From assembly GCA_023664305.1 (NCBI GenBank), contig JAMPFT010000003.1:62001-126000 (forward strand): a stretch of 64,000 nucleotides of DNA. The letters are read 5' to 3'. The notes under the pieces were generated by a model. That model saw only the letters and a list, made by a program, of their open reading frames with translations, was not told where the DNA came from and searched no databases. Of this stretch, positions 45,294 through 52,285 are shown in pieces; position 1 is the first letter of the stretch, and every line of letters begins with the position of its first letter. Source of the stretch: a bacterium (GTDB taxonomy: Bacteria; Bacillota; Clostridia; Lachnospirales; Lachnospiraceae). The position numbers and the translations under genes were made by a program.

Positions 45294-46808
45294 TTACAAA
45301 AAAATAGTCAGCACCGCCAACACCGCCGCAATCACCGCCGGCACACTGACGGTATCGTTCCCGTTGTGGGAAAAAAGCTCCGCGGCTGCTGCCGCCGGAG
45401 CCGCCGCCAGAGACAGCAGGGCGCACTGATACAGGGGAAGCGGAGAAGCGGCCGCGAGCACTGCCGTCCCGACGGCAAAGCAGGCTGCGGTCATGGCGCA
45501 GGAGCCCTCCCAGGTCTTAAGGGGATCCGCGTGAGGCAGGGTGATTTTATGCTTTCCGAAGCGTTTGCCGACCAGCGCCGCAACGGTGTCGCCCACTCCC
45601 CACATAATGATCGACGCGTACACGAGGTACGGCTTGCCCAGCCAGCCCCAGCAGACGGCAATCAGAACGGCATGAGTCACAAACATCAGCCAGAGACTTT
45701 TTCTCACTTCTCCGTCCCTTCGCTGCACAAAAAGATCCGCGTAACCCTTCCAGCGCTCCGCGAGGCGCAAAACCGGATAGACAACGACGCAGAACAGCAC
45801 GCAGCAGACGCAGGAAACCAGCCAGTCGCCGGAAATCAGCATCATGCAGATGGCGGAGGTATAGGCCACAAGATGAAGGGCTTTGCGCCACACCTCCCGG
45901 GGAATCCTGACAAGAAACCGCAGAACCAGCAGCGTCAGGACGCAGCAGGCCAGATAAATCAGATATCCGCCCAGACAGGAGAGCACCTTCCACAGCAGCT
46001 CGATCCCCTGAAGAAATTCCCTATATTGCAAAATCAGCATAGCGGCTCCCAGCACGGTCAAAATCGCGCCTGTCACCAGACCTACCGTCCTGTTATCCAC
46101 CCTGTTGGCAAACCGGGCGGAGACGACGGAGGCCGCGGTAGCTACGGTGATGCAGATGATCAGCACGTCCCACCGCTCCAGCGCGATGGCGGGGTCGATC
46201 ATGATGTGGCTGACGGAGGCAATCAGGGCGGTGAAGGTCATAATAAAGGTACTGGTGCCCACGGCGGGCTTCCGGTCCATCCCCAAAAAAGCGGTAAACA
46301 CTACCAGCATCATCATACCGCCGCCGGAGCCCACAAAGCCAGTGCCAAAGCCGATCGTCAGACCGAAGAACAGGGAGATAGCCACTCCCTTCCAGTCAAG
46401 CCCCGCGCCTTTCTCTACGGTGTGCTCCCGCTGTGTGTCCGGCTTCAGGAGGAACCGGATGCCGATGAAGAAGGTCAGGAACAGGGAAAAGCCGCCCAGC
46501 ACTACATTCCCCGCCGACCAGGCGGCAAAGCTGCCCGCAATGCACATCCCGACGATGCAGGTCAGCATGATCCAGCCGCGCTTCAGGTCGATGTTTTTAT
46601 GCCGGATGTAGATTGACGTCGTGACGGCGGAGCCCAGAATATCGGAGGCCAGAGCGATCGCCGTAGCGTGGTAGGCTCCTGTCTCCCCCGCAAAGGACGG
46701 ACACAGCACAATCAGGATGGGCACCATCACCGTGGCGGCGGACAACCCCGCCAGCCCGGTGCCCACGCCTGCCCCCAGGGCTGCAATAATATACCAGAAA
46801 TATTCCAT
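45294..46808 (-). CDS. TauE/SafE (TSUP) transporter fused to dolichol/phytol-kinase-like domain
   Basis: The 504-residue polytopic protein has two parts. Residues about 1-265 are a TSUP anion exporter (GVGTGLAGLSAATVMVP, GFGTGFVGSGGGMMML repeats). Residues about 280-504 read as a polyprenol-kinase/CDP-diglyceride-synthetase-like membrane domain: KALHLVAYTSAICMM, GVGDTVAALVGKRFGKHKI and KTWEGSCAM, similar to VTE5/dolichol kinase motifs. No frameshift is seen. It ends up alone between remnants and leuA. Confidence 0.8.
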   Translation of the reverse strand: MEYFWYIIAALGAGVGTGLAGLSAATVMVPILIVLCPSFAGETGAYHATAIALASDILGSAVTTSIYIRHKNIDLKRGWIMLTCIVGMCIAGSFAAWSAGNVVLGGFSLFLTFFIGIRFLLKPDTQREHTVEKGAGLDWKGVAISLFFGLTIGFGTGFVGSGGGMMMLVVFTAFLGMDRKPAVGTSTFIMTFTALIASVSHIMIDPAIALERWDVLIICITVATAASVVSARFANRVDNRTVGLVTGAILTVLGAAMLILQYREFLQGIELLWKVLSCLGGYLIYLACCVLTLLVLRFLVRIPREVWRKALHLVAYTSAICMMLISGDWLVSCVCCVLFCVVVYPVLRLAERWKGYADLFVQRRDGEVRKSLWLMFVTHAVLIAVCWGWLGKPYLVYASIIMWGVGDTVAALVGKRFGKHKITLPHADPLKTWEGSCAMTAACFAVGTAVLAAASPLPLYQCALLSLAAAPAAAAAELFSHNGNDTVSVPAVIAAVLAVLTIFL

Positions 46809-46966: not shown

Positions 46967-48967
46967 TCACCCCTGCTTCCGATACTGCACGGGCGTCATT
47001 CCATAGCTCTTTTTAAACAGCCTGTTGAAGTGCTCCACATTTTCGTAGCCCACCTCCGCCGCGATGGTTTCCACCGTCTGGTTGGTCTCCTTCAGCATCG
47101 TCCGGGCTCTCTTCATCCGCTCCTTCTTAACGACCTCCTGGAAGGTCATCCCCGCCTTTTCCTTGATGTACTTGGAGAGGTACGGCTTGGAAAGATGGAA
47201 GCTTTCGGAAAGCGTCTCCAGCGTCACGCTCTTATAATCGTTGCGGATATGGCTGATGATCTCTACGATGCGTTCCTCCCGGCCCGTGGTGATATGCTGC
47301 TGCTCCGCCAGCTTGTTCACGGCGGAAGTTAGGGCCGCGATGGACGCCTTGATGATATCCTCGTCCACGCCCACGCCCCAGTAAGGCGTTCCCTCCTGCA
47401 AAATCTCCACATAAGCCGCCGCCTTGGAGCTGGAGCCCTTGGAGATCGCGTGCTCCTCATAAACCGACAGCTGATAGCTCATTCCGAAATAAGTCTTGAT
47501 TGCGTTGCTCACCGCGTCCAGGCGGCCGTTTCCGGAGGTACGGATCACTCGGCGGGTCTCGTTCTGCTCGATCGTTACCTCCGCCTGGATTCCCCTCTCC
47601 TGCTTGAAGTGGCACTCGGGGATCCGGAACACGTTCCGGGGATTGATGTAATGCTCCTCAAAGATCGCATAAATCTCCGCGGGCAAAAGCTCCTGGTGGC
47701 GCTTGTCGGAAACGCCCTTGATCAGATAACCCACCTCTTCCTTCATGGCCGTCGGCAGGGAAAATCCGAACTGCTGCTTCAGCACAAAGGCCACACCTCC
47801 CTTGCCGGACACACTGTTGATCCGGATGACGTCGGACTCGTATTCCCTTCCCACATCCTTCGGGTCGATGGGCAGATAAGGCACATCCCAGCGATTTCCG
47901 CTCTTTCCCTCTTTTAACCAGGTCATTCCCTTGCTGATAGCGTCCTGATGGGAGCCGGAGAAAGCGGTGAACACAAGATCTCCCGCGTAGGGCGTCCTCT
48001 CGTGTACCCTCATGCCGGTAAAATGTTCATAGGCCTCCCGGATCTTCATGATATGGCTAAAATCAAGCCCGCTGTCTACGCCGTGGCTCATCATGTTCAC
48101 GGCCACGGTGACGAGATCCACGTTTCCCGTCCGCTCCCCGTTGCCGAAAAGGGTGCCCTCCACCCGGTCCGCGCCCGCCAAAATCCCGAACTCCGCGTCG
48201 CTGACGCCGCAGCCCCGGTCGTTGTGGGGATGGACGCTCAACACCACATTTTCCCGGTATTTGAGATGCTTGTGCATATATTCCACCTGAGCCGCGAAAA
48301 CGTGAGGCATCGCCACCTGTACCGTCGTCGGAAGGTTGATGATGGCCTTGCGCTCCGGGCAGGGCTTCCAGACGTCCAGCACCGCGTTGCAGACCTCCAG
48401 CGCGTAATCCACCTCGGTCTGGGAAAAGCTCTCCGGGCTGTACTCAAAGGTAAAATTGCCCTCCGTCTCCTCCGCCATCTCCTTTAAAAGCTGCGCGCCG
48501 TCCACCGCCAGCTTCTTGATGGCCTCCTTATCCTTCTGAAACACCTGCTCGCGCTGCTCCACGGAGGTGGAATTATAGAGATGCACCACCGCGTGAGGCG
48601 CGCCCTTCACCGCGTCGAAGGTCTTGCGGATAATATGCTCCCTGGCCTGCGTCAAAACCTGAATCGTCACGTCCTCCGGAATCATCTCCTTCTCGATCAG
48701 CGCCCGGATAAAATTGTATTCCGTATCGGAGGAAGCGGGAAACCCCACCTCGATCTCCTTAAACCCGATCTTCACCAGCAATTTAAAAAATTCCAGCTTA
48801 TCCTCCAGACTCATGGGATCGATCAGCGCCTGATTGCCGTCCCGCAGATCCACGCTGCACCACACGGGCGCTTTCTCGATACAGTCCTTCGTCACCCAGT
48901 CATAGGTTACCTCCGGGGGCATGTGATAGGTCTTGGCATATTTCCTTTTGATTTCTTCTCCGTTCAT
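46967..48967 (-). CDS. leuA: 2-isopropylmalate synthase with C-terminal AraC-type DNA-binding domain
   Basis: The 666-residue protein contains the LeuA barrel (VDLRDGNQALIDPM, GFPASSDTEYNF, HPHNDRGCGV, LFGNGERTGNVDL) and the LeuA dimer/regulatory domain (about 450-560). About 100 further residues form a full AraC/XylS DNA-binding domain: first helix-turn-helix VTLETLSESFHLSKPYLSKY and second ETIAAEVGYENVEHFNRLF, ending YGMTPVQYRKQ. The frame is continuous. LeuA makes 2-isopropylmalate from 2-oxoisovalerate and acetyl-CoA and is normally inhibited by leucine. CAGGGAGGACAAC precedes the ATG. No other leu genes are near. Confidence 0.92.
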   Translation of the reverse strand: MNGEEIKRKYAKTYHMPPEVTYDWVTKDCIEKAPVWCSVDLRDGNQALIDPMSLEDKLEFFKLLVKIGFKEIEVGFPASSDTEYNFIRALIEKEMIPEDVTIQVLTQAREHIIRKTFDAVKGAPHAVVHLYNSTSVEQREQVFQKDKEAIKKLAVDGAQLLKEMAEETEGNFTFEYSPESFSQTEVDYALEVCNAVLDVWKPCPERKAIINLPTTVQVAMPHVFAAQVEYMHKHLKYRENVVLSVHPHNDRGCGVSDAEFGILAGADRVEGTLFGNGERTGNVDLVTVAVNMMSHGVDSGLDFSHIMKIREAYEHFTGMRVHERTPYAGDLVFTAFSGSHQDAISKGMTWLKEGKSGNRWDVPYLPIDPKDVGREYESDVIRINSVSGKGGVAFVLKQQFGFSLPTAMKEEVGYLIKGVSDKRHQELLPAEIYAIFEEHYINPRNVFRIPECHFKQERGIQAEVTIEQNETRRVIRTSGNGRLDAVSNAIKTYFGMSYQLSVYEEHAISKGSSSKAAAYVEILQEGTPYWGVGVDEDIIKASIAALTSAVNKLAEQQHITTGREERIVEIISHIRNDYKSVTLETLSESFHLSKPYLSKYIKEKAGMTFQEVVKKERMKRARTMLKETNQTVETIAAEVGYENVEHFNRLFKKSYGMTPVQYRKQG

Positions 48968-49049
48968 GTTGTCCTCCCTGTTGATATCTTCTAAAATTTC
49001 AGGCTTTCTGTTGCAACGCTTCCGCCGCTTTCGTATGTGACGCCTTTTT

Positions 49050-49078
49050 ACCTTAACATACATCAATCTATTTTGCAA
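49050..49078 (-). promoter_or_regulatory. Candidate leuA promoter
   Basis: TTGCAA, 17-base spacer, TAAGGT, giving a leader of about 75 bases. I see no T-box or leader peptide rich in Leu codons. Confidence 0.45.
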
Positions 49079-49133
49079 TGACATATTTTATGCATACTCA
49101 TGACTTTTTTTGCCCTTTAGAAAAATACAAAAA

Positions 49134-49175
49134 CCCGAAACGCGCGTTTTTACAGCATTTTCAGCGCGTTTCGGG
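49134..49175 (-). terminator. Terminator upstream of leuA
   Basis: Perfect 12-bp stem CCCGAAACGCGC/GCGCGTTTCGGG followed by TTTTTGTATTTTT on the minus strand. It ends transcription from the HEPN/MNT loci before leuA. Confidence 0.85.
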
Positions 49176-49251
49176 TTGATATTTTATTTCTTCGGTGTTT
49201 GAATTATTTTCTCCCTTTTTATACTGCCTCTGATCCTAAAGCAATTACGGG

Positions 49252-49528
49252 TTACAGATAAATATTCCAATATCCTTTTCTATCAGAACCTATTCTTTCT
49301 ATGATACCTTTCTCCCTTAATTTTTTAAGCTTAACAGATACCGTCTTTCGGCTTACGGCAAGCTTTTCGGCAAGTTCAACAGTTTTATATTCAGGATTAT
49401 CTTTCAATAACTTAAGAATCTTTTTTTCTGTAACTTTCTTTTTCCAAAAGCGCTTCTGCCTCCAACACAAGTTCTGCCGCCCGTTCCAGCCTGATCCTCG
49501 CCAATTCCGCACAATGCCTATTTTCCAT
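49252..49528 (-). pseudogene. HEPN remnant joined to a winged-helix fragment
   Basis: A frame from ATG 49528 reads MENRHCAELARIRLERAAEL, the start of a HEPN toxin, and stops at 49412 after 38 residues. In another frame the DNA continues as VTEKKILKLLKDNPEYKTVE..AEKLAVSRKTVSVKLKKLREKGIIERIGSDRKGYW, a winged-helix domain like the end of AlbA_2/Schlafen-type or Fic-type regulators. A deletion seems to have fused two genes. Confidence 0.6.
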
Positions 49529-49871
49529 AGATGCTTATTCCCTCCTGACTTATATTTTTAAAATATGGATACCACTCCTTTTTTTCATCATATTCTTCTT
49601 TGGGAAGGCACACAAAATTCACAATAGCAAAATATTTTAATGCAAATGCTGTTGCGATTTGTGCCAAGACATGTCCGTATTTGTTACTTTCTATCCTGCC
49701 GCACTTTGTCAAAAGCGCGATGTCTATATCTGAATCCTCATTGAAATCCCCTCTTGCGCACGACCCATAGAGAATAATATCATACAGATCGTCTCCCAAA
49801 GCCCTTTTTACTATTGGCACAGACTCATGTTTAATCTTTTCTATTACACTGTCGGTTAAATCTGTTATCAT
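49518..49871 (-). CDS. MNT-type nucleotidyltransferase with broken HEPN partner
   Basis: A 117-residue protein with LYGSCARGDFNEDSDIDIALL (GSxxRG and DxD). It overlaps the start of the HEPN remnant by 11 bases, the usual order. The antitoxin frame is intact. The DNA is AT-rich. Confidence 0.85.
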   Translation of the reverse strand: MITDLTDSVIEKIKHESVPIVKRALGDDLYDIILYGSCARGDFNEDSDIDIALLTKCGRIESNKYGHVLAQIATAFALKYFAIVNFVCLPKEEYDEKKEWYPYFKNISQEGISIYGK

Positions 49872-49961
49872 AAACTCATCCCTCCTGGCGGTTTATCCTA
49901 AAATGTTACTACCATCCCCAATAGTAAAATCCTGTCCCCTTACACACATTCAAATTCAATA

Positions 49962-50396
49962 TCACTTATTATGGTTGTTCTCATTCTTTCCCACCCTGTT
50001 TTTACAATACTCTTCAACCATTTTTATCAATTCTTCTGCTGCTTCTACCAATTCCTGTGTTTCCCTTTTGTCTGCTATATAGAAATCATCATAATCGCTT
50101 GCATGTCGAATTTCTTCTGCGCGTGAAATTTTTCTGCCTATATCCCTCGGAAAAATCTCCGTTTTTATATAATCTTTGTTAAAGTTTCCTATTGCATCTT
50201 TATGTCTTTTATATGCTTTTTCGTCCAATGCATGAACCGCCGATATGGCATGAAAAATAGCATAATACGCTCTATTATTTGCGGTTCTGTATTCTTTGGA
50301 TTGTATCAATAATTTTGCAACTCTCAAATCACTTTCTGCGGTTTCCAATCTATATTTCATCAAATCGGTTTTATTTCCCTCATCATGCTGCTTCAT
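49962..50396 (-). CDS. HEPN-domain toxin
   Basis: A 144-residue all-helical protein: YRTANNRAYYAIFHAISAVH, KRHKDAIGNF and the catalytic type RHASDYDDFY (R-x4-6-H family). It is predicted to be an RNase held in check by the adjacent MNT protein through tyrosine modification at the DYDDFY segment. It overlaps the MNT gene by 14 bases. This is the only intact pair of the three MNT/HEPN loci in this region. Confidence 0.85.
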   Translation of the reverse strand: MKQHDEGNKTDLMKYRLETAESDLRVAKLLIQSKEYRTANNRAYYAIFHAISAVHALDEKAYKRHKDAIGNFNKDYIKTEIFPRDIGRKISRAEEIRHASDYDDFYIADKRETQELVEAAEELIKMVEEYCKNRVGKNENNHNK

Positions 50397-50724
50397 ATAG
50401 TTTTATTCCTTCTCTCTCAACATTTGCATAAAACGGATATGCATTTAACCAATATCTGAAATGTTCCTGGCATTTTGCAATCGGTTTAATATCCACATCA
50501 TGATCCATATTAAAATCATAAGTCATATACGAAAGATCGCGTCCAAAGTTTTTAATTTCCAGCTCTTCAATGTCAAGTAAAATCATGATATCAATGTCAG
50601 AATCTTCTCTGTAATCACCACGCGCATAAGAACCATACAATATAACTGTTTTTAAATGAGACCCATAGATTTCCTTTATTTTATTTACATATTGTTTTAA
50701 CAAATCATCTATTCCGATTGGCAT
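50383..50724 (-). CDS. MNT-type nucleotidyltransferase antitoxin
   Basis: A 113-residue protein with LYGSYARGDYREDSDIDIMIL and a third carboxylate in DHDVDIKPI. The start MPIGIDDLL was chosen, with GGAGGGATAATGAT upstream. It pairs with the HEPN gene that follows. Confidence 0.88.
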   Translation of the reverse strand: MPIGIDDLLKQYVNKIKEIYGSHLKTVILYGSYARGDYREDSDIDIMILLDIEELEIKNFGRDLSYMTYDFNMDHDVDIKPIAKCQEHFRYWLNAYPFYANVEREGIKLYEAA

Positions 50725-50767
50725 ATCATTATCCCTCCTACCTCCCACAAAACAAAAGTATTTTATC

Positions 50768-52069
50768 TCAAATCACCCCATCATCCAGCAAAAAATCGAT
50801 CAGCCCGATATTCAGCACACCGTTTTCATTATACCACCGTTTCCGGACGTCGTGCCGGACAATGATTTTCGGAAAAGAGTCCCCGGCGAGGGAGAACGGC
50901 TTATTTTCAGCAATCACTTTTTCCTCAGCGCCGAGCGCATAGGCGGATTGAATATAGACCTTCTTCCCGCCGAGAGTGGCAACGAAATCGATCTCCCGCG
51001 ATACCTGCGAGGGTTTCCCTTTCCCGTTTTTCTCGGTCGAGATCACGACGCCTACATCCACTGACCAACCGCGAACCACCAGGTCATTGTAGACGATATT
51101 CTCCATGATGTGAGTCATTTCCTGTTGGCGGAAACCGATCCGGGCGTTACGAAGACCAATGTCCTCGCAGTAATACTTGTTGGGGTAGTCAAAATAGTTC
51201 TTTCCCCTCACATCGAAGCGCTTGCACTCGCTGAACAGGAACGCATCTGCCAGATGATTCATGTACGCCTTCACTGTGTTATTTGCTACCACATTTCCCC
51301 CGGTGCGCTTCTGCTTCGAGTTTATGGCGTTGGTCACATTGGTGGGATTGGTGAGCGAGCCCACAGAGGAGCAGAGCAGATCAAGAATAGACGCCAACAC
51401 ATCCTCCCGTTTCACTTTTTTGCGCTCTATAATGTCCTTCAGATAGACCTCTGAGAACAGCGATTGCAGATAGTTCATTTTGGCCTCGTCAGTAGGGCGG
51501 GACAGCACAAGGGGCATACCGCCGTAAAAGGCGTAGCTTTCAATGGCATCCTCCTTGTCTCCTCCCACAGCAGAATAAAATTCGGCAAAGCACAGCGGGT
51601 GAACTCTGATCTCGTCGCTGCGCCCTCTAAACTCCGTGAGGATATCGCTGGACAACATTTTAGAGTTACTGCCGGTCACATAGATATCCAGATTAGACAG
51701 GGATTTCAAATCGTTAAGCGCATCATAGAAGGTGATCGCTTTGCCGTTCTTATTGTAGGGATTCGGCACCTCGTCCGACATCTGGATCTCGTCCACAAAA
51801 AGATAAAACTGTTCGCTGCTGCCCCCCACGATGTTGCGGACATGGCTGGCCAGCTCCAAAGGATTACGGTAGCGGATGTCCTTTGCCAGATCCAATTCAA
51901 AACACAGAATATTGGTGTCAGGAACGCCCTTCTCCAGCAGATACTTCTTAAACAGCGTCCGAAGGAGATAAGACTTTCCGCACCGACGAATACCGGTGAT
52001 GACCTTGACCTGCCCGTCCCACATATACGAAATAAGCTTCTGCAAATACCGATCACGTTTGATTTCCAT
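50768..52069 (-). CDS. AAA ATPase with DUF4143 domain
   Basis: A 433-residue protein: Walker A TGIRRCGKSYLL, Walker B FYLFVDEIQ, arginine/sensor region (YVTGSNSKML), then a DUF4143 domain with a PD-(D/E)XK-like end (REIDFVATLGGKKVYIQSAYAL). Such orphan ATPases are common in anaerobes and are often found in accessory regions; the role is unknown. The ATG with GGAGATCGTT upstream was chosen. Confidence 0.88.
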   Translation of the reverse strand: MEIKRDRYLQKLISYMWDGQVKVITGIRRCGKSYLLRTLFKKYLLEKGVPDTNILCFELDLAKDIRYRNPLELASHVRNIVGGSSEQFYLFVDEIQMSDEVPNPYNKNGKAITFYDALNDLKSLSNLDIYVTGSNSKMLSSDILTEFRGRSDEIRVHPLCFAEFYSAVGGDKEDAIESYAFYGGMPLVLSRPTDEAKMNYLQSLFSEVYLKDIIERKKVKREDVLASILDLLCSSVGSLTNPTNVTNAINSKQKRTGGNVVANNTVKAYMNHLADAFLFSECKRFDVRGKNYFDYPNKYYCEDIGLRNARIGFRQQEMTHIMENIVYNDLVVRGWSVDVGVVISTEKNGKGKPSQVSREIDFVATLGGKKVYIQSAYALGAEEKVIAENKPFSLAGDSFPKIIVRHDVRKRWYNENGVLNIGLIDFLLDDGVI

Positions 52070-52285
52070 AACGATCTCCATTGAAAACTTGGTCGAAATA
52101 CTATTGTAAATTATCAATGCATTTATTATACCCGCTTTTCGGCTCAGACGCAAGGCCTTAGTGTAATATGCTTCTCCTCTGCACTTCAGCCTCTGCACTT
52201 CAAGGCTCTTTGCGATACGACGGAAAAACCTGTTACGGGTACATACAGCGGCGAAAGTTCAGACACAGACGTATCTTCCGGTAAC

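Follow-up and report, generated by a model that had tools for sequence, protein, structure and literature searches.

The minus-strand reading frame that ends at position 46967 of the window (the whole 64,000-nucleotide stretch of DNA that was analysed) is a single unbroken ORF, as judged from the ORF list and the sequence. The encoded protein comprises, in order, a complete 2-isopropylmalate synthase (LeuA), a coil of approximately 8 residues and a complete seven-helix AraC-type DNA-binding domain (Table 1). The curated Pfam cut-offs were passed by all five of the domains identified, which bears out the proposal in the earlier note that a complete LeuA and both AraC helix-turn-helices are held in one frame. 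In the numbering of the longest version of the ORF (705 amino acids from 49084) the matches are to HMGL-like (residues 74-350, 1.7e-69), IPMS_D2 (369-436, 1.2e-31), LeuA_dimer (466-592, 2.1e-27), HTH_18 (625-704, 2.9e-23; 82.4 bits against a cut-off of 33.6) and HTH_AraC (667-703, 9.5e-15; 54.8 bits against a cut-off of 26.6). The start at 49084 was rejected since it is located upstream of the predicted -35 and -10 elements. ATG 48967 is the likely start of the fusion, being favoured because starts are found at or near the same place in relatives, because it is preceded by GGGAGG, and because the predicted promoter falls between 49084 and 48967; residue numbers given hereafter are those of the resultant 666-residue protein. 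By eye, the GGAGG near 47279 is not closely followed by a start codon from which a separate AraC domain might have been translated.

Table 1. Features of the leuA locus in the window, listed in the direction of transcription
Feature	Positions	Strand	Residues	Basis and details
GC-rich inverted repeat with T-run, just 5' of the operator	49128..49177	minus		By eye
Predicted operator, 39-bp core, abutting the leuA -35 box	49075..49113	minus		Matrix score 20.2
Predicted leuA promoter	49050..49078	minus		-35 TTGCAA 49078-49073, 17-nt spacer, -10 TAAGGT 49055-49050, TGT before -10; by eye
Ribosome-binding site GGGAGG	48973..48978	minus		Sequence
leuA-araC fusion gene, 666 aa	46967..48967	minus		ATG 48967, stop TGA 46969-46967; ribosome-binding site and ATG
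HMGL-like catalytic barrel	48035..48865	minus	35-311	PF00682; barrel strands and helices in model
IPMS_D2 post-catalytic domain	47777..47980	minus	330-397	PF22615; low-confidence in model
LeuA_dimer, leucine-type allosteric regulatory domain	47309..47689	minus	427-553	PF08502; alignment with M. tuberculosis LeuA
8-residue coil from last helix of regulatory domain to AraC domain	47276..47299	minus	557-564	AlphaFold2 secondary structure
AraC-type DNA-binding domain, seven helices	46973..47275	minus	565-665	HTH_18; model
HTH1 helix taken as recognition helix, KPYLSKYIKEKA	47153..47188	minus	594-605	Model
HTH2 helix taken as recognition helix, VEHFNRLFKKSY	47003..47038	minus	644-655	Model

The enzyme portion is of the long LeuA type, matching NCBIfam NF002991 (PRK03739) with 797.9 bits against a cut-off of 455; the narrower TIGR00970 model of the yeast LeuA scored below its cut-off (665.3 against 697.4). 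Among solved proteins, M. tuberculosis LeuA (1sr9, E 5.6e-152) is nearest in sequence and, including the leucine-bound form 3fig, also provides the top structural matches in Foldseek, with 44-46% identity in full-length matches. The barrel, IPMS_D2 and leucine-type regulatory domain are common to both proteins, but M. tuberculosis LeuA ends after the regulatory domain, whereas LeuA-AraC continues into the AraC DNA-binding domain. The motifs DLRDGNQ, HPHNDRG and GNGERTGN, which we take to be the catalytic motifs of LeuA, are invariant in 48/48 fused proteins and align also with the M. tuberculosis enzyme, while the GNG, EHA and WGVG motifs of the regulatory domain align to leucine-bound 3fig in a sequence alignment that concerns whole motifs as opposed to ligand contacts.

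An AlphaFold2 model of the single chain, calculated from a 48-sequence alignment, has a mean pLDDT of 78.6 and a pTM of 0.52, with values below 50 at residues 322-351 and 358-389 and of about 79-90, by blocks, in the AraC domain. The helices of the latter span residues 565-576, 583-590, 594-605, 609-627, 632-638, 644-655 and 659-665, the third and sixth being presumed, from knowledge of the AraC family, to be the recognition helices. The C-terminus on its own matches AraC-type domains, such as that of YesN (3lsg).

2-Isopropylmalate synthase is the committed enzyme of leucine synthesis. LeuA-AraC is the sole LeuA found in its own genome (94.6% completeness), the other 21 matches comprising 20 AraC-domain matches and one weak match of 122 residues, and since that genome also holds leuC and ilvD, the fusion probably catalyses this step of leucine synthesis there.

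Several neighbouring genes were noted also. Two small nucleotidyltransferase-like proteins (49518-49871 and 50383-50748) flank a HEPN protein (49962-50396) just upstream of leuA, and the 49518-50748 stretch would appear to comprise MNT/HEPN toxin-antitoxin-like modules. An AAA_14/DUF4143 ATPase encoded at 50768-52198 is a strong match to the PADLOC candidate PDC-S01 (7.4e-104). Just downstream of leuA, the protein encoded at 45294-46808 has a TauE/SafE permease domain at residues 6-257 and a C-terminal half of about 250 amino acids that gave no Pfam match, and which presumably resembles a phytol/dolichol-kinase-type membrane protein; this gene is possibly another fusion.

Distribution and conservation of the fusion

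The same in-frame fusion is present in 80/80 of the relatives' loci that were kept (the best 80 of 201), among them a locus in a complete genome of 4.08 Mb. An assembly error that joined two genes, which the earlier note had named as grounds for dismissing the fusion, or a chance join, is ruled out by this recurrence. Absence from close relatives, which the earlier note had coupled with a lack of DNA binding as its other ground, was likewise not what was observed: 42/61 genomes of the same genus carry the fusion, a count that includes the window's own genome and also G012 and G058, in which the fusion is in two pieces. A search for the domain pair in other Lachnospiraceae, as the earlier note had suggested, revealed the fusion in at least 60/250 genomes from 249 genera of the family, with at least one more in a genome where the gene is cut by a contig end; the survey counts are of full-length fusions read from the match rows. 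Outside the family the fusion is sparse, being found in 0/38 genomes of other families of the order, in 14/392 genomes of the class (11 of the family, and three from two other families) and in 4/398 genomes of the phylum, one of which (G981) lies outside the class. The fused leuA of G981 (locus L346) is 68% identical, and has both an upstream site of the type described below (score 30.1) and a T-box signature; gene and operator have probably moved together in this case.

Pairwise distances of the LeuA and AraC parts of 64 proteins are correlated (r 0.83), a value reached in 0/2000 permutations. This correlation between the two parts speaks for a single fusion event, followed by inheritance by common descent.

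Whether the AraC part is maintained was judged from codon position 2/position 3 differences in 60 close pairs. The ratio for the HTH region, 0.090, matches that of the enzyme, 0.091, while it is higher (0.201), and constraint thus weaker, in residues 554-579, which form the coil and AraC helix 1. The AraC domain is not decaying, and is under purifying selection as strong as that on the enzyme. Within the helices taken to be recognition helices, Y596, S598 and I601 of HTH1 and E645, H646, F647, R649 and F651 of HTH2 are identical in 109/109 fused proteins, the more distant L325 having N in place of H646. It is conceivable that the domain has become vestigial, or serves a purely structural purpose, and does not bind DNA, and several lineages do seem to have lost it with retention of LeuA; however, the equal constraint on the two parts of the protein and the invariance of the key recognition-helix residues render this explanation very improbable.

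A predicted operator and its promoter context

A word count over the sequences upstream of 78 fused genes revealed that AAATAAATC occurs in 36 of them, where shuffled sequences would lead one to expect 1.3. A position matrix was constructed from these 78 upstream sequences, that of the window among them, the core of which reads TTAAAATAAATCAATaaAwtgATwAAAAtnnncCTTG. Scores above 17 were obtained in 77/80 loci scanned (3-14 kb each), always in the 570 nt that precede the fused gene, with a second match there in six loci. In the window, the predicted operator is the best match in 64 kb and the next best scores 8.0, although the window is itself in the matrix; its score marks it as a diverged member of the set. 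Fused loci of other genera (67-82% identity), which are independent of the matrix apart from L278, a locus encoding exactly the LeuA of training locus L094, have the site in 27/28 cases. Outside the family it is present upstream of the fused genes L325, L326 and L327 from other families, and of L346 from another class.

None of 1120 shuffled upstream regions reached a score of 10, and in the final table a site was defined as a score of at least 10 within 700 nt upstream of the gene. By this definition a site precedes 115/120 fused leuA genes (78/81 near, 37/39 distant) and 0/27 unfused leuA genes (0/10 in close relatives, 0/17 in others), the latter sample covering at most a minority of the unfused leuA genes in the 250-genome survey; the counts take loci singly, regardless of shared ancestry, and include the near-duplicate pairs window/L040, L094/L278 and L131/L132. 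Of the five fused loci in which no site scored, L055 and L079 run into a contig end, L068 falls below the threshold with half-sites that are displaced or degenerate, L284 has an unrelated leader, and L328 scores 1.3, with a site that is visible but diverged.

Examination of 38 sites from distant loci revealed a direct-repeat peak at 22 bp and an equally strong inverted peak at 20 bp; because the operator has both kinds of symmetry, the layout of its half-sites is ambiguous. The GC-rich inverted repeat and T-run immediately 5' of the operator in the window are probably the terminator of the upstream gene; a terminator scan with a loop limit of 8 did not list this repeat.

The spacing between the start of the core and an extended -10 element (TGnTAnnAT-like) was measured over 105 sites, and is 57, 58 or 59 in 92 of the 96 that match the -10 pattern. 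The window is among the nine non-matching sites, but its distance, measured by eye, is 58, as the spacing in relatives predicts. Its leuA promoter was not listed by a sigma-70 consensus scan and TAAGGT lies outside the -10 pattern, so the promoter would seem to be a weak one. Activated promoters are often weak, and an operator that adjoins the -35 box, with near-constant spacing to the -10 element, appears to occupy an activator-like position. The suggestion in the earlier note that the protein controls transcription from its own promoter is accordingly strongly supported by comparison: a conserved operator-like site does abut that promoter, and is found together with the AraC domain, from which we infer the control itself. 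Binding of LeuA-AraC to its own promoter is, on these sequence patterns, very probable. Given such binding, activation is the likely consequence, a view that derives from the position of the site only.

AraC-type proteins can also repress. The fusion might bind the site as an autorepressor or roadblock, lowering leuA expression when leucine or substrate is bound, and two observations are in keeping with this: the site reaches the -35 box with the half nearer the promoter, and in five loci from distant genera (L283, L286, L288, L298 and L299) the site overlaps a hairpin and T-run, as seen by eye. Against it, the site lies 5' of the -35 box with the rigid spacing described above, and the promoter combines a poor -35 box with an extended -10, as activated promoters usually do; repressors tend rather to bind over the -10 element or the start. 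Autorepression is on balance unlikely. The overlap itself, in which a terminator-like hairpin of the GGAAAGTGA...TCACTTTCC type with its T-run is located at the -35, was observed by eye in L292 and L304 as well as in the five loci just named.

Leucine T-boxes and unfused leuA genes

In a tree of 95 sequences based on LeuA only, nine of the ten close unfused leuA genes fall at several places inside the fused clade, and the tenth (L343) at its base, giving a minimum of 7 changes between the fused and unfused states in a tree with weak support at many of its deeper nodes. Since the nine nested genes all lack the site, repeated joint loss of the domain and the site is suggested; alternatively, the fusion may have been gained by transfer. 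In two further loci, unfused at first sight, the AraC domain is encoded in another frame directly downstream of the LeuA stop and the operator is kept (L337, score 21.3; L342, score 6.3); these may be natural splits or frameshifts. Locus L338 was classed as fused and is cut by a contig end.

The six genomes with two leuA genes (G004, G016, G024, G033, G038 and G045) have a second, unfused copy (L145, L137, L144, L139, L146 and L138, respectively), the product of which is approximately 50% identical to the fused LeuA. None of the six unfused copies is preceded by the site, which is present before the fused copy in five of these genomes, the sixth fused copy (L079) being cut by the contig end. 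Recognition of the site by some other regulator would require that the AraC domain has a different role, and that domain and site are retained and lost together by chance or through a shared lifestyle. The window's own genome does offer candidates in its 20 further AraC-domain matches. However, domain and site are found together in distant genera as well as in other families and another class, are absent together in close unfused lineages, and differ between the two copies within single genomes, all of which make this explanation improbable.

A T-box signature precedes 8/10 close unfused leuA genes (L336 and L343 lack it) and 18/120 fused loci, of which 17 also have the site; in the word count, T-box words were found in 14 of the 78 fused upstream sequences. 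When 20 loci were scanned with the Rfam T-box model (RF00230), 11 scored above the gathering score before leuA, comprising six unfused (L130, L131, L339, L340, L341 and L344) and five fused genes (L101, L104, L289, L290 and L332), while L113, L119, L133, L134 and L335 have the signature yet score below gathering. In the T-box alignments of L289, L344 and L332, the first and last of which are fused loci with both controls, the specifier, at what we take to be its position, reads CUC, CUC and CUA, respectively, all leucine codons. In two unfused loci a Clostridiales-1 RNA (RF01699) was detected between the T-box and leuA (L344, 2222-2385; L341, 2259-2417). The window contains no T-box at the gathering score, and its leuA leader no other Rfam element either; of 10 T-box matches in its own genome (3 above the cut-off), the targets of which were named by eye, none precedes leuA, leuC or ilvD.

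The retained regulatory domain, together with the leucine-type T-box that is in place at most close unfused relatives, would by analogy point to leucine as the signal sensed by the fusion. If the protein binds and activates its promoter, leucine is fairly likely to be the main effector. Alternatively the effector might be the catalytic state of the enzyme, with 2-ketoisovalerate, acetyl-CoA or product in the barrel reporting substrate supply. The invariance of the catalytic motifs would be compatible with this, but in the model the AraC domain is approximately 8 residues from the regulatory domain, most close unfused leuA genes are preceded by T-boxes, and the three specifiers examined read leucine codons; an effector of this kind is rather unlikely.

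Proposed regulation and relation to known systems

Other possible targets were examined also. A half-site scoring above 9 is present within 300 nt upstream of leuC in 9/23 fused genomes versus 0/22 unfused, with a threshold that was picked after seeing the scores; column-permuted matrices averaged 0.4/23 and never gave 9 in 500 trials. Since the half-site is missing from most fused genomes, rank tests did not reach significance (p 0.19 against all unfused genomes, 0.40 against unfused genomes of the genus). The count includes L186, which lacks the TCA core; L191 has a half-site just outside the limit, and three loci were left out, namely L202 (contig-cut, with its front part, on L248, counted instead), L273 (a truncated gene) and L274 (short of the family cut-off). 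No leuC was found in 4/27 fused and 3/27 unfused genomes. The leuC of the window's own genome has a half-site with a score of 17.2. No site was detected before ilvD, the one ilv gene scanned (29 loci, best score 1.6). The idea that distant ilv/leu genes are targets is hence sustained, with the reservation of the rank tests, for leuC in a subset of genomes, and finds no support at ilvD.

At the genome scale, a pattern searched with two mismatches gave 87 matches in 27 fused genomes versus 40 for the reversed control, and its exact matches number four, all at leuA. A stricter pattern, which was designed with the leuA and leuC sites already known and is informative as to specificity only, gave 19 matches in 18/42 fused genomes, with 15 at leuA, 2 at leuC and 2 elsewhere, versus 1 for the reversed control; it has no match in the window's own genome. 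A broad regulon was rejected on these counts. With this distribution of strict-pattern matches, and with ilvD lacking a site, the regulon of LeuA-AraC is probably small.

These observations make it reasonably probable that LeuA-AraC is a self-regulating enzyme that activates its own promoter, a reading that leaves the effector open. A dimer of the protein would bind the element via two half-sites separated by approximately two turns of the helix, of which the one nearer the promoter would reach the -35 box, and the bound protein would contact RNA polymerase, giving class II activation of a weak promoter. Less certainly, leucine filling the regulatory domain would inhibit catalysis and move or release the DNA-binding domains, such that leuA expression falls; scarcity of leucine would then turn leuA on, by the same logic as in a T-box. 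In some genomes leuC would be a further target. The fusion would thereby do the job performed by a leucine-type T-box in most close unfused relatives, the window showing the fusion device only. The fuller proposal, that a committed enzyme, a leucine sensor and an own-gene activator are united in one protein, which arose once, is present in about a quarter of the Lachnospiraceae genera sampled and supplants the leucine T-box, is tentative, and falls a little short of being probable.

Several known systems invite comparison. AraC/XylS regulators (MarA, AraC and the YesN type) share with LeuA-AraC the seven-helix domain with two HTH motifs, and a predicted site that abuts the -35 box and has a direct-repeat component alongside the inverted one. 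Such regulators mostly have a cupin or a receiver as the sensor half, or lack one, whereas in LeuA-AraC an entire biosynthetic enzyme, allosteric domain included, takes this place. In the trigger enzymes PutA, BirA and NadR, an added DNA-binding domain makes a pathway enzyme a transcription regulator also, but the enzymes and the DNA-binding folds differ from those of LeuA-AraC. We know of no trigger enzyme in branched-chain amino acid synthesis, or with an allosteric amino-acid domain beside an AraC domain. Ada/AdaA combines an AraC-type domain with a DNA methyl-transfer repair protein and is positively autoregulated; unlike LeuA-AraC, Ada functions in DNA repair, responds to covalent methylation as its switch and lacks a site for a metabolite. 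The leucine T-box (RF00230) is also found before leuA, but is an RNA element that senses uncharged tRNA. A description of LeuA-AraC was not found in searches of published open-access papers, and the passages of PMC5171806 that were consulted do not mention leuA. Enzymes with added DNA-binding domains are already known, and LeuA-AraC would be a new case among them.

If the proposal is true, a committed-step biosynthetic enzyme joins the short list of enzymes that double as DNA-binding regulators. The fusion is common in a major gut family, and the annotation model that it matches names it as 2-isopropylmalate synthase only. It could also serve synthetic biology as a compact part that may respond to leucine. 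Domain and operator are missing together from unfused genes, mostly with a T-box instead, which constitutes a natural experiment on the exchange of RNA and protein control; and, if the proposal is true, the repeated joint losses and the intermediates with both controls would line up as a natural series of steps in that exchange.
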